Of a stretch of 64,000 bases of DNA, positions 32,454 to 41,235 are shown piece by piece; the first letter of the stretch is position 1; each line of letters opens with the position of its first letter. The notes under the pieces are model-generated. The model was given only the letters and a program-made list of their open reading frames with translations. It was not told where the DNA came from and did not search any database. The stretch comes from a virus: IMG/VR virus record IMGVR_UViG_3300032093_000042, positions 40,909 through 104,908 of that record. One strand, 5' to 3'. The translations under genes were made by a program, and so were the position numbers.

Positions 32454-33095
32454 ATGAAAAAAGCATCAGGTAAAAGTAATCTATCAATTGTAAAAGATTA
32501 CGTCGAAGGCAACCGTCCATTTGTACAGTTTGGTTACGATCCCAATTTAAACAATAATAAACGCAAAGAAGGTGAAGAGTGGGAAGACTCACAAGGTAGA
32601 AAGTGGATTTGGAAAAATGGTGTAAAACGTAGAGTTCCAAAGAAAGCTAAAATTATCAACGAACAACGTTGTAAAGAATGTAATATGGATGTTCGGTGGG
32701 GGAATTATTTAGATGATCGTGTATGGCCAAAAACGGGCATGTGTTACGATTGTTATATTAATTTTCAAACCAATCTGAAATTGATTGGTATGTTTGAAAT
32801 TTACAACGAACTTCAAGATTTGAAGAATGAACGTAGTATTTTAGAAGACTATAAGAAAAAATTTGAAGAAAGCAAAAAATTTTGTGAAGAAAATCAAGGT
32901 AAACCAGTTGAATTTTTAGAAGAAGATGGTTCTTTTGAACGATGGGAAGGTATTCAAGATTATAATAAAATACTAGAAGATTTAAATAAAGATTTGGAGT
33001 TACTCTATAAACGTTTAGAAGAACTAAATGCCAAAATAAAAGAGTACGAAGAACAATATGAGTCAGCAAAATCTCAGAGAAATAATAAAAAGTGA
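32454..33095 (+). CDS. Zinc-ribbon coiled-coil protein, candidate small terminase or packaging factor
   Basis: A 213-aa protein. Residues 40-65 hold a W-rich segment (GRKWIWKNGVKRRVP). Residues 73-100 hold a C73-x2-C76 / C97-x2-C100 zinc ribbon (CKEC...CYDC). Residues 105-213 are a long charged coiled coil. It lies directly upstream of, and overlaps by 38 bases, the large terminase gene, the place of gp16 in T4-like genomes, and gp16 is also helical and oligomeric. No sequence identity to gp16 is claimed; the role is a positional inference. Confidence 0.5.
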   Translation: MKKASGKSNLSIVKDYVEGNRPFVQFGYDPNLNNNKRKEGEEWEDSQGRKWIWKNGVKRRVPKKAKIINEQRCKECNMDVRWGNYLDDRVWPKTGMCYDCYINFQTNLKLIGMFEIYNELQDLKNERSILEDYKKKFEESKKFCEENQGKPVEFLEEDGSFERWEGIQDYNKILEDLNKDLELLYKRLEELNAKIKEYEEQYESAKSQRNNKK

Positions 33096-33903
33096 GTATA
33101 AGAAGTGTATAGAAGATCCTATATACTTCATGAAAAAGTACGTTAAGATTCAACATCCTATAAGAGGAACAGTTGGATTTGAACTATACCCATTTCAAGA
33201 AGAGGCTTTGGAAGAGTTTGTTGATAATCAATTAAACATTGTTCTTAAAAGTCGTCAGATGGGTATTAGTACTCTTACCGCCGCATATAGTTTGTGGTTA
33301 ATGACGTTCCACAATGATAAGAATATTCTTTGTATTAGTATTACTCAAGAAACCGCAAAAGAAATCGTTACCAAAGTAAGATTTGCAAATGATAATCTTC
33401 CAAGTTGGTTGAAAGTTCCTTGTGTAGAAGACAATAGATTATCATTACGATTGAAGAATGGATCTCAAATCAAAGCGGTATCATCTGCCGGTACCGCAGG
33501 TCGTTCATCAGCTCTATCATTACTAATTATTGACGAAGCTGCATTTATCGATGGTATTGAGGAAATTTGGCTGTCTGCTCAATATACATTATCTACCGGT
33601 GGTAGAGCTATTATATTAAGTACTCCCAACGGCGTTGGTAACTTCTTCCATAAAACTTGGGTTGAAGCTGAAGAAGGTAAAAATAACTTCAAGACTATAC
33701 GATTGCCATGGCATTTACATCCAGAAAGAGACCAGACTTGGAGAGATAAACAAACAGAATTGTCGGGTGTGAAAGGAGCCGCACAAGAATGTGATTGTCT
33801 ATGGGGAGACTCTGTTGTTAGAGTTAAAGATAAATTGTCTGGAAAAGAATTTGATATTTCTTTGGAAAAGTTATATTCTGGGGATTTACAATTATATGTA
33901 TAA
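33058..33903 (+). CDS. gp17: Large terminase (gp17-like), N-terminal part fused to N-intein
   Basis: A 281-aa protein. Residues 1-246 are the terminase ATPase: a Q-motif-like YPFQEEA, a deviant Walker A K64-SRQMGIST, Walker B LLIIDE (D159/E160) and coupling motif STP (188-190). At Cys247 the sequence changes to CLWGDSVVRV, a textbook intein block A, and the protein stops 35 residues later. The terminase nuclease half is on a separate gene at 34662-35855, so a functional motor (246 + 283 = 529 residues) requires protein trans-splicing. The terminase cuts and pumps concatemeric DNA into the prohead through the portal, encoded next. Confidence 0.93.
   Translation: MSQQNLREIIKSEYKKCIEDPIYFMKKYVKIQHPIRGTVGFELYPFQEEALEEFVDNQLNIVLKSRQMGISTLTAAYSLWLMTFHNDKNILCISITQETAKEIVTKVRFANDNLPSWLKVPCVEDNRLSLRLKNGSQIKAVSSAGTAGRSSALSLLIIDEAAFIDGIEEIWLSAQYTLSTGGRAIILSTPNGVGNFFHKTWVEAEEGKNNFKTIRLPWHLHPERDQTWRDKQTELSGVKGAAQECDCLWGDSVVRVKDKLSGKEFDISLEKLYSGDLQLYV
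33796..33903 (+). other. N-terminal fragment of atypical split intein (35 aa)
   Basis: It encodes the intein segment from Cys1 (CLWGDSVV) to the stop at 33901-33903. At 35 residues it is far shorter than the roughly 100-residue N-fragments of typical split inteins. It matches the layout of the AceL-TerL intein, a natural split intein from a terminase with a short N-part and a long C-part. Confidence 0.88.
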
Positions 33904-33906
33904 TAC

Positions 33907-34665
33907 ATGAATGTGATTGCGACTCATACGCATATGCCTAAAAATTATGCATCTATAGGATGGAATAAAATCAAACAACAATTAAGTTGTGAAACAGATT
34001 TATATTCAACCGAGGAAACAAAATCCGAATTGTTAAAAAACGATTATTATAAATTTTTATTTGGTCGTGCAAAGAATAGAACTTTGATGAAACAAAATCC
34101 AAAATTATACAAATCTATTCTTTTTCATACGGAGATTCTAGAAAAATCATTTAAACAACAACAAAGTTACAAGGGATGGTATAGTTTTTCGTACCGAATT
34201 CGTTTTATTGTTGAACATAACTACGATTTAATAAAATTGAAATGTCAATGTGGAAAAAAAATAACATGGACTAAATATTGTCGTAGATGTCCTGAATATC
34301 ATAAAACCCAGACCGGTAAATCACACACTCCGGAAACAAAACAAAAAATGAGAGTATCCGCGTTAAAGTATCTATCAGAAACAAAAGGACAAATTATACC
34401 CCGTTATAACAAGAGATCAATACAACTGATAGAGGAATTTGGTAATAAACATGGATATACATTTAGACATGCTGAAAACGGAGGTGAGGTTTTTCTTAAA
34501 GAACTTGGTTATTGGTTGGATGCATATGATGAGAAAAATAACGTCGTGTTGGAAATATATGAAAAAAGACACTATAAAAATGGTAAATTGAAACAACGAG
34601 ATTTCCAACGAGAAAATGAAATTAAAAATTTATTAGGGTGTAAATTGTTCACGATTGACATATGA
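33907..34665 (+). CDS. Free-standing homing endonuclease, Vsr-like, between the split terminase halves
   Basis: A 252-aa protein lying between the two terminase genes: 3 bases after the first stop, with a 4-base overlap (ATGA) with the second start. A zinc-binding region (CQCGKKITWTKYCRRC, residues about 114-130) is followed by a NUMOD3-like segment (GKSHTPETKQKMRVSA). The C-terminal domain has YWLDAYDEKNNVVLEIYEKRH and a QREN helix, resembling the Vsr/PD-(D/E)xK endonuclease family reported inside other phage genes fractured by split inteins. It would cut intein-less terminase alleles and spread the element. Its codon use is AT-rich like the rest. Confidence 0.8.
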   Translation: MNVIATHTHMPKNYASIGWNKIKQQLSCETDLYSTEETKSELLKNDYYKFLFGRAKNRTLMKQNPKLYKSILFHTEILEKSFKQQQSYKGWYSFSYRIRFIVEHNYDLIKLKCQCGKKITWTKYCRRCPEYHKTQTGKSHTPETKQKMRVSALKYLSETKGQIIPRYNKRSIQLIEEFGNKHGYTFRHAENGGEVFLKELGYWLDAYDEKNNVVLEIYEKRHYKNGKLKQRDFQRENEIKNLLGCKLFTIDI

Positions 34666-35003
34666 ATCATTCGAAAATTAAACTAAATACTAGATTTCAG
34701 ATTTTGACTCCGACTGGATATCAGGATTTTTTTGGAATCAGAAAAGTAAAAAAAGATTGTTATTATACCATTTTATTGAGTAACGGAAAAATAATAAAAT
34801 GTTCGGATAATCATTCATTTATTTACAACAACGTCGAGGTTCGATCTCATGATATCAGTATTGGATCAAAAATATCAGGAGTTGATGGTATAGAGGTGGT
34901 TGTTGTATCAATAGAAAAATTTGAAAACACGATTGATTTGTATGATATAGTAAATGTATCAGGTGGTAATATTTTTAATGTAGATGGAATTGTTTCACAT
35001 AAT
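34662..35003 (+). other. C-terminal fragment of atypical split intein (114 aa)
   Basis: It runs from the start ATG to the terminal Asn before Cys+1 (35004). It contains the ILTPTGYQDFFGI segment, the block B His (SDNH), the block F region (DLYDIVNVSGG) and the terminal His-Asn. The order and length match the C-part of AceL-TerL-type inteins; block B is in the C-fragment, unlike in most natural split inteins. Confidence 0.88.
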
Positions 35004-35855
35004 TGTGATTTTTCTACTTCTGGTAATCAAGTTGTTAGTGTAGATGTTCTTGAGTTTTACAAACAAACATATTTAAAAGATCCTATAGAAAAACGTGGTA
35101 ACAATCAAGATTTATGGATCTGGGATTATCCAAATTACAGCAAAAACTACATATTGACGGCGGATTGTGCTAGAGGAGATGGTGGAGATTTTAGTGCATT
35201 TCATGTTATTGACATTGAAACAATGGAACAAGTGGCTGAATACAAAGGTCAACTAACCACTAAAGATTACGGTAATTTATTAGTCAGTGTAGCTACTGAA
35301 TATAATAACGCATTGTTAGTTGTAGAAAATAACAACGTAGGATGGGGAACTCTTCAACAGATTATAGATAGAGACTATCAGAATACGTTTTATAGTGCAA
35401 CCGATCTTACTATTGTAGATGTAGAAAAGTCTTATAGTAATAAATTACACGCGCAAGATAAAAAATTAGTCGCTGGGTTTACAACAACGAGTAAAAATAG
35501 ACCATTAATAGTGAGTAATTTAGAGTTATTTTTTAGACAAAAACAAGTTATAATCAAATCAAAACGGTTATACGAAGAATTGAATGTATTTATTTGGAAC
35601 GGACCGAAAGCCGAAGCGATGAGAGGTTATAACGACGATTTGGTGATGTCTATTGGTATAGGATTATGGGTTCGTGAAACTGCTTTGAGGCTTAGAAACG
35701 ATCAAATTGCATATAATAAAGCTATGATTTCTAAAATATCCAAAGTAACAAGTCCTGTAATATTACCTAGAGAAATTAGCTCTATACCGGATTATCAAAA
35801 GACACTTGAATTTTCCGTTAATGATAAAAAAGAAAGTTTAACTTGGTTATTGTAA
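34662..35855 (+). CDS. gp17: C-intein fused to large terminase nuclease domain (gp17-like, C-terminal part)
   Basis: A 397-aa protein. Residues 1-114 are the C-intein: block B-like IKCSDNHSF near residue 47, and a C-terminal block ending DGIVSHN. The extein resumes at Cys115 (CDFSTSGNQVV), which would join the upstream ...AAQECD to give ECDCDFSTSGN, the expected terminase junction. Residues 160-397 are the RuvC-like packaging nuclease, with acidic residues in LTADCARGDGGDF, LLVVENNN and YNDDLVMS. The start is the ATG overlapping the endonuclease stop. A 23-base gap then leads to the portal gene. Confidence 0.93.
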   Translation: MNHSKIKLNTRFQILTPTGYQDFFGIRKVKKDCYYTILLSNGKIIKCSDNHSFIYNNVEVRSHDISIGSKISGVDGIEVVVVSIEKFENTIDLYDIVNVSGGNIFNVDGIVSHNCDFSTSGNQVVSVDVLEFYKQTYLKDPIEKRGNNQDLWIWDYPNYSKNYILTADCARGDGGDFSAFHVIDIETMEQVAEYKGQLTTKDYGNLLVSVATEYNNALLVVENNNVGWGTLQQIIDRDYQNTFYSATDLTIVDVEKSYSNKLHAQDKKLVAGFTTTSKNRPLIVSNLELFFRQKQVIIKSKRLYEELNVFIWNGPKAEAMRGYNDDLVMSIGIGLWVRETALRLRNDQIAYNKAMISKISKVTSPVILPREISSIPDYQKTLEFSVNDKKESLTWLL

Positions 35856-40799: not shown

Positions 40800-41235
40800 A
40801 TTCAATCATTTTATTAAACGTTTCAAAAACGTATTTTCTATTTGTTTCTAATACATAGCCTTCGTCAGTTTTATAGACGAAGGCTTTTGTTTTTTCATTT
40901 TCCATTTTTATTGATGGAATTTCAATTTCACTAAACATTTTGTATTCATCATCAATACGAAAATTCATTTCTCCCAACATATCCAATTCTTTAAAATCCC
41001 ATCCATTTGGGTGGTCAATATCTTCTAGTTTATAAATTTTTACATCTTCTTCAAAATTATCATTATTAATAAAATTAATTAGTTTAGGACTTTTATAATT
41101 GTTATAATTATTATTCATTGAACGCACGTCGGGATTAGAATAAGGGTTTTCTTCTCCGGTTCTTTTAATATTTTTATAAGATTCCTTTTTATTATTTATA
41201 TGTTTATTAAAGTTTGGATTGAAATTGTATGGCAT
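40762..41235 (-). CDS. Minus-strand hypothetical protein (MPYNF start)
   Basis: A 157-aa protein. I use the ATG at 41235 because it follows the upstream minus-strand stop by one base (the same TAA-T-ATG junction as in the main operon), rather than a longer start inside that gene. The N-terminal 50 residues are Asn-rich and disordered; the remainder looks folded (IYKLEDIDHPNGWDFKELD, KAFVYKTDEGYVLETNRKY). Function unknown. It converges on, and overlaps by 38 bases, the plus-strand core-protein gene, and the plus-strand terminator at 40857 lies within it. Confidence 0.5.
   Translation of the reverse strand: MPYNFNPNFNKHINNKKESYKNIKRTGEENPYSNPDVRSMNNNYNNYKSPKLINFINNDNFEEDVKIYKLEDIDHPNGWDFKELDMLGEMNFRIDDEYKMFSEIEIPSIKMENEKTKAFVYKTDEGYVLETNRKYVFETFNKMIEFIDSIPMNQLKT
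40857..40895 (+). terminator. Rho-independent terminator inside antisense gene
   Basis: A ten-base-pair perfect stem (AGCCTTCGTC at 40857-40866 against GACGAAGGCT at 40876-40885), a 9-nt loop and a T-rich tail (TTTGTTTTTT). Its direction fits ending the plus-strand 20-21 operon. It falls within the coding sequence of the minus-strand gene 40762-41235. Confidence 0.7.

Follow-up and report, generated by a model that had tools for sequence, protein, structure and literature searches.

Fractured genes, in which split inteins occur, and the EDxHD family of endonucleases go back to Dassa et al. (2009; cited in PMC10448857). Atypical split inteins such as AceL-TerL and GOS-TerL, whose consensus is CatC (PDB 6dsl), reside in the large terminase protein TerL and combine a very short N-terminal intein fragment (IntN) with a long C-terminal one (IntC). 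The locus described here shares these features, but unlike the AceL-TerL/GOS-TerL type it has an EDxHD endonuclease gene between the two halves. It lies in a stretch of 64,000 nucleotides (nt) from a virus (IMG/VR record IMGVR_UViG_3300032093_000042, positions 40,909 to 104,908), hereafter called the window, in whose coordinates all positions are given. We consider it very probable that the large-terminase gene of this virus carries a three-gene mobile element, with trans-splicing, homing, endonuclease loss and candidate self-regulation as its parts.

Three open reading frames (ORFs) on the plus strand make up the locus: 33058-33903 (281 amino acids, aa), 33907-34665 (252 aa) and 34662-35855 (397 aa). 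The first encodes the ATPase half of TerL, a 246-aa N-extein (33058-33795) that ends in QECD, is continuous in intein-less relatives and matches Pfam Terminase_6N (1.3e-12) and phrog_5989 (3.1e-41). IntN (33796-33903, stop codon at 33901-33903) follows directly and reads CLWGDSVV...LQLYV, with Cys1 opening block A (CLWGDS); the C-terminus of the ORF is thus CLWGDSVVRVKDKLSGKEFDISLEKLYSGDLQLYV, beginning 35 residues before the stop. The third ORF opens with the 114-aa IntC (34662-35003; block B KCSDNH, block F LYDIVNV, block G GIVSHN), the terminal GIVSHN of which precedes Cys115, the Cys+1 of the nuclease half. This C-extein of 283 aa (35004-35855) matches T4 gp17 chains (E ~1e-9) and phrog_24361 (1.5e-13). 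The endonuclease ORF stands between the halves and overlaps the third ORF by 4 bases (34662-34665). Combined, the exteins amount to 246 + 283 = 529 aa, with the junction QECD/CDFSTSG (a slash marks extein junctions throughout). As in a fractured gene, an independent ORF thus stands between two gene parts that each bear an intein half, and uninterrupted homologues exist. The initial annotation, made without database searches, had described a block A (CLWGDSVV) 35 residues before the stop of the ATPase half, a 114-residue C-intein ending in HN before Cys+1 of the nuclease half, an intervening endonuclease ORF with a 4-base overlap, and a proper terminase junction within 529 residues; the ORFs bear out each of these points, and the profile matches identify both halves as terminase.

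The locus is 100% identical in five IMG/VR contigs (L001-L004 and L008; contigs are designated by L numbers) and is therefore not an assembly accident. In the 104,908-base virus record, which is possibly incomplete, the TerL N-half, IntC and this kind of endonuclease occur once each; neither a second continuous terL nor a second intein was found in these 104.9 kb, which may be a partial record. Introns do interrupt terL in other phages (PMC12363816, PMC10448857), and the split could in principle be due to a group I intron, a frameshift or an assembly chimera, with flanking peptides that are no intein. Against this, both flanking intein halves are conserved across diverged phages, five contigs have the identical locus, the reading frames are intact, and the window has no Rfam match, on which ground a group I intron was rejected as the cause of the split; at the level of sequence, such an origin is refuted.

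Over residues 6-116, IntC is similar to the engineered consensus of atypical inteins, CatC (6dsl, chain B; E 3.9e-18), and it weakly matches Pfam Intein_splicing (1e-4, under the cut-off of that model). IntN alone gave no meaningful match as a query; it is 77-80% identical to the IntN of its closest relatives, whose stop falls 4 codons earlier. Where relatives have a separate IntN it is often 30-31 aa long, within a range of 30-45 aa. At 35 and 114 aa on separate ORFs, the two parts have the proportions of the short-IntN type (IntN under about 40 aa, IntC over about 100 aa), the IntN of AceL having about 25 aa. The CatC match and these lengths agree with the earlier identification of an atypical split intein, and its designation as a new member of the atypical TerL group also holds. 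The class 1 splice residues (Cys1, block B His, HN and Cys+1) are intact in the window and in close relatives, and the ratio of nonsynonymous to synonymous substitution rates (dN/dS) of IntC is 0.08-0.10, indicating purifying selection. The two TerL halves would be expected to trans-splice into a 529-aa product. DNA packaging may well depend on this reaction, because terL is present in a single copy, the splice residues are intact and IntC is under purifying selection.

Continuous inteins were also seen. The TerL N-half of Vibrio phage VP-1 (L115:1334-3550) has an extra one in the Walker A loop (SGK/CVDHDTMIN...SHN/TTV) beside the split intein, and in SRB7757 (L119:2757-4832) TerL has a continuous mini-intein elsewhere, near the Walker B acidic motif (DE/CVTGDT...SHN/CAF). 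The portal gene of L017 (L017:6234-10034) apparently contains two continuous inteins (CVGPDTII...VICGN/T and CLAKNSYV...GIVVHN/S).

Alleles were surveyed in the best 80 related viral contigs. The intein is present in 17, and 63 have no match to the insert; in 62 of the latter the N- and C-exteins are joined without a gap, L046 covering the C-extein only. The junction in the empty alleles examined is CAAGAATGYGAY/TGYGAYTTY, translated as QECD/CDF. An uninterrupted terminase, which the initial annotation proposed to look for in related phages, is therefore found at the exact site in 62 contigs, with exteins up to 94-98% identical. Carriers are dispersed among empties on a tree of close exteins: carrier monophyly is rejected (approximately unbiased test, p 7e-46), and at least 7 changes between the two states are required. 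Carriers L011 and L012 cluster with empty L074 and L080 (Shimodaira-Hasegawa-like approximate likelihood ratio test, SH-aLRT, 97), and carrier L016 is the sister of empty L027 (SH-aLRT 94). The exteins of L011 and L074 are 97-100% identical in each 60-base block compared, with the 1.2 kb insert in L011 only. At four-fold degenerate sites, the inserts of L005 and L011 agree in 73 of 74 cases within the endonuclease and 35 of 36 within IntC, versus 54 of 83 and 32 of 71 in the two exteins (99% against 45-65%). Near-identical inserts in diverged exteins mean that the whole split cassette moved recently between diverged phages, and horizontal movement of this kind has thus taken place among close relatives. 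Neither these signs of homing nor the homing-site copy described below featured in the initial annotation. By eye, the insertion lies one codon earlier (QEH/C) in Aeromonas phage PX29, Serratia 92A1 and Providencia PSTRCR_127 (L113, L116, L117), and at QECD/C in the window and QEHN/C in Vibrio EniLVp02 (L122), an offset hinting at two neighbouring intein insertion points.

The endonuclease, which had been called Vsr-like, was aligned with its relatives (41 sequences). Residues E194, D205, E216, E219, H222 and D232 are invariant, and E194, D205, H222 and D232 are taken as the EDxHD residues, an assignment made by order and not by superposition. A usable AlphaFold2 model was built from the 41-sequence alignment (predicted local distance difference test, pLDDT, 86), whereas a five-sequence model was poor. 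In a Foldseek search with this model, the catalytic domain of I-Bth0305I (3r3p_A) was the best plausible match at rank 2 (probability 1.00, template modeling score by target 0.52, E 0.022), rank 1 being a mitoribosomal protein of unrelated fold; Vsr (1vsr) came further down at probability 0.57. Sequence and profile searches of the endonuclease against the PDB gave no meaningful match, including none to 3r3p; some members of the family match the DUF559 and MTES_1575 nuclease models. Taken together, the invariant residues, the fold match of the model and the DUF559/MTES_1575 matches support filing the enzyme as EDxHD/Vsr-like, in keeping with its first description. Its nuclease core (34456-34662, with the invariant E194, D205, E216, H222 and D232) resembles I-Bth0305I (PDB 3r3p). 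The dN/dS of the endonuclease is 0.08-0.18 in eight computable pairs, and the protein is therefore maintained for function. Translation probably starts at 33934 rather than at 33907, since the start homologous to that of relatives is the second methionine (M10), judged by a conserved N-terminal ...NYVK.GW motif. The enzyme would be predicted to cleave insert-free terL at the insertion site.

When viral contigs were scanned more widely, this endonuclease family was found in about 40 distinct TerL inserts, almost all of them with three ORFs. The endonuclease is fused in frame to IntN in L179 and L180, and its frame is broken in L181 and L184. Split inserts also occur with both ends of the endonuclease gene remaining (L007), with about its last 50 codons (L131), or without any endonuclease (L017, L111). 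In L125, IntN and IntC are identical to those of L090 and the endonuclease tail alone is left, which points clearly to deletion. Endonuclease-less inserts are still split; the split state therefore persists after the endonuclease has gone, a prediction of the homing cycle (PMC7765530). The nuclease domain also has shorter, free-standing relatives, and some of these EDxHD-like endonucleases adjoin an intact, intein-free terL (L205:2683-3354, L206 and L202:1477-2061). Under collaborative homing (PMC3984707), such neighbours are a plausible source of the endonuclease and possible homing partners. Nuclease-domain relatives were also seen in very large phages (L120:3710-4357, LR756508; L121, Lak-A2), apparently outside terL.

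Between IntN and the endonuclease, the window sequence ACATGAATGTGATTGCGACT (33905-33924) matches the composite empty site of the population at 19 of 20 positions; no further match within 3 mismatches was found in the 64 kb, and none in 100 shuffles. When the 80-base site of each individual phage is used in a more stringent scan, the window alone is marginal (4 of 100 shuffles are equally good), and the signal of a site copy therefore rests on comparison across lineages. For this comparison a 15-nt pattern, CARGARTGYGAYTGY, which is the insertion site made degenerate at third positions, was scored over 49 distinct inserts. It occurs at 13/15 or better in 33 of them, the window included (CATGAATGTGATTGC, 33906-33920), always at insert positions 88-126; outside the stretch 85-131, the best score among 52,361 insert positions was 11/15. 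Clustering the endonucleases at 80% identity divides the carriers of the copy into 22 groups, the lowest identity between carriers being 43%, and the copy occurs in all three frames relative to IntN. In many lineages it lies just ahead of the endonuclease methionine, usually by 0-28 nt; the only methionine found in L090, L158 and L161 overlaps the copy, and none was found in five lineages. Conservation is confined to the 15 nt, and the flanks carry little information (27 distinct contexts; column values are inflated by the selection of matches). The copy was not found in endonuclease-less inserts other than L007, in the fused L179 and L180, in several endonuclease-bearing outliers (L156, L166, L182, L183, L192, L193) or in the fractured terL of six isolates (VP-1 not among them). 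Another clade has an inverted half-copy downstream, matching at 10-12 of 12 positions in nine inserts. The copy does not seem to be refreshed by gene conversion from the phage's own terL, the third-codon match being 2.70 to the own gene and 2.78 to others (permutation p 0.74).

Of the 46 ORFs of the window, 6 have the sequence TATTTATA at a distance of exactly 12 nt upstream (examples are 11784, 40362, 45853 and 49029). Allowing at most 1 mismatch, it precedes 7 ORFs at one distance, versus at most 5 in 200 shuffles, and it is a possible promoter or gene-start box in this phage. A candidate box of this kind for the endonuclease, TATGTATA (33895-33902), differs from TATTTATA by 1 mismatch. In many lineages a TATTTATA-like box begins 10-11 nt upstream of the site copy; among 25 listed lineages, about half have it with 0-1 mismatches, several others with 2 and three with 3-4, and it is weaker at the other genes of the relatives.

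In phage T4, the operator of I-TevI resembles the homing site and overlaps a promoter (PMC2988022). The layout here is similar, with a homing-site-like sequence just upstream of the endonuclease gene and near a promoter-like box. Because of this resemblance, it seems to us an even call whether the endonuclease regulates its own expression through a conserved decoy of its cut site at the gene start, as I-TevI does, but with an enzyme of an unrelated family and with inteins in place of introns; one clade would by now have this decoy as a dyad that surrounds a sequence similar to TATTTAT(A). Ranked next, and distinctly less probable, is the possibility that the copy is a functionless fossil of endonuclease capture, left when a broken terL end was joined to a free-standing endonuclease gene. 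In favour of such an event, the copy covers exactly the cut junction and is missing from the endonuclease-less L017, L111 and L125, and the free-standing nucleases beside intact terL (L205, L206, L202) are as collaborative homing predicts (PMC3984707). A neutral fossil, however, should decay, whereas the 15 nt are sharply conserved relative to their flanks, in three frames and among endonucleases down to 43% identical; choosing matches at 13/15 or better exaggerates the conservation of columns, but it has no bearing on the contrast with the 52,361 other positions, of which 0 qualify. We regard as unlikely that the conserved element is an RNA hairpin controlling translation and not a protein-binding DNA site. 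T4 I-TevI has such a hairpin (PMC2988022), and folding is better than that of shuffles in some lineages (z -3.9 in L157 and -3.2 in L173), but z is near 0 in the window (0.09), L005, L090 and L158, all of which have the site copy; a hairpin as a general shared feature was rejected on this basis.

In the mechanism that we favour, TerL-N-IntN and IntC-TerL-C would be translated apart, associate and trans-splice by Cys1 and Asn114/Cys+1 chemistry into the 529-residue terminase. The EDxHD endonuclease would cut intein-less terL alleles at QECD/CDF, and repair from the carrier would copy IntN, endonuclease and IntC into the gene that was cut. Once the element has spread, the endonuclease could be lost, leaving a gene that stays split and splicing-dependent. 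With about an even chance, the 15-nt site copy upstream of the endonuclease start may serve as a binding site by which the enzyme limits its own expression. Several observations weigh against this account. The insert of the window is no more similar to other inserts than the exteins are and shows no sign of a recent jump of its own, and the mobility of this particular cassette is suggested by its close relatives. The Foldseek E-values are weak (0.022), a site copy within the element could be self-cleaved, and residue 218 of the endonuclease is Tyr in 4 of the 41 sequences, including the window, and Asp in 37. The Tyr218 of the window's subfamily, together with the existence of split alleles without an endonuclease, would also suit a relic in which the split intein is kept as unlosable and the endonuclease of the window phage is dead. 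This appears improbable, since E194, D205, E216, H222 and D232 are all present, dN/dS between the window and its relatives is 0.08-0.09, and cassettes bearing Tyr218 (L005, L011 and L016) moved recently.

Split inteins are widely used as protein-ligation tools, though the spread and persistence of natural ones are little documented. In related phages, alleles of one split intein are found empty, filled or without the endonuclease, and one pair is nearly isogenic apart from the insert, which makes split-intein homing directly testable, and the locus predicts both the cut position of the endonuclease and a DNA site for its possible self-restraint. The approximately 40 distinct natural inserts, with most N-parts of 30-45 aa, are a practical source of short-IntN ligation tools.

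As in known fractured genes, an essential phage gene is divided here over two ORFs that each bear one half of a split intein and that flank an endonuclease gene; the locus differs from these and from the known EDxHD family in its host gene and in the homing-site copy ahead of the endonuclease. The fractured NrdHF gene of AceL likewise unites a split intein, an intervening endonuclease gene and an essential phage gene, but has a class 3 intein, a typical split site and a GIY-YIG enzyme in an nrd gene (PMC7891396). I-TevI of T4 belongs to the GIY-YIG type and resides in a group I intron, unlike the EDxHD enzyme of the window, which accompanies a split intein and whose binding to the site copy is putative. 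Genes 17A/17B of PX29 (GU396103) are similar in that TerL is split by an atypical split intein, annotated there as N-intein, GIY-YIG endonuclease and C-intein. TerL split by an atypical split intein was also recognized by eye in Serratia 92A1, Providencia PSTRCR_127 and Vibrio K469, VP-1, Va1 and EniLVp02. Unlike that of the window, the endonuclease of the isolates, where present, looks to be GIY-YIG (Vsr-like in Va1) and is often fused to IntN or IntC (by eye except for PX29); EniLVp02 appears by eye to have none. Vibrio phage Va1 (L118:2364-4649) shows an alternative arrangement, with a Vsr-like endonuclease fused in frame to the IntC of a split TerL. Already known, then, were split inteins in fractured genes, atypically split TerL inteins, EDxHD enzymes and, in PX29, terminase genes annotated in this way (17A/17B). 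To our knowledge, the founding papers aside, what is new is the allele series showing recent movement of a split-intein cassette, how broad this TerL family is, and the homing-site copy with its conservation.
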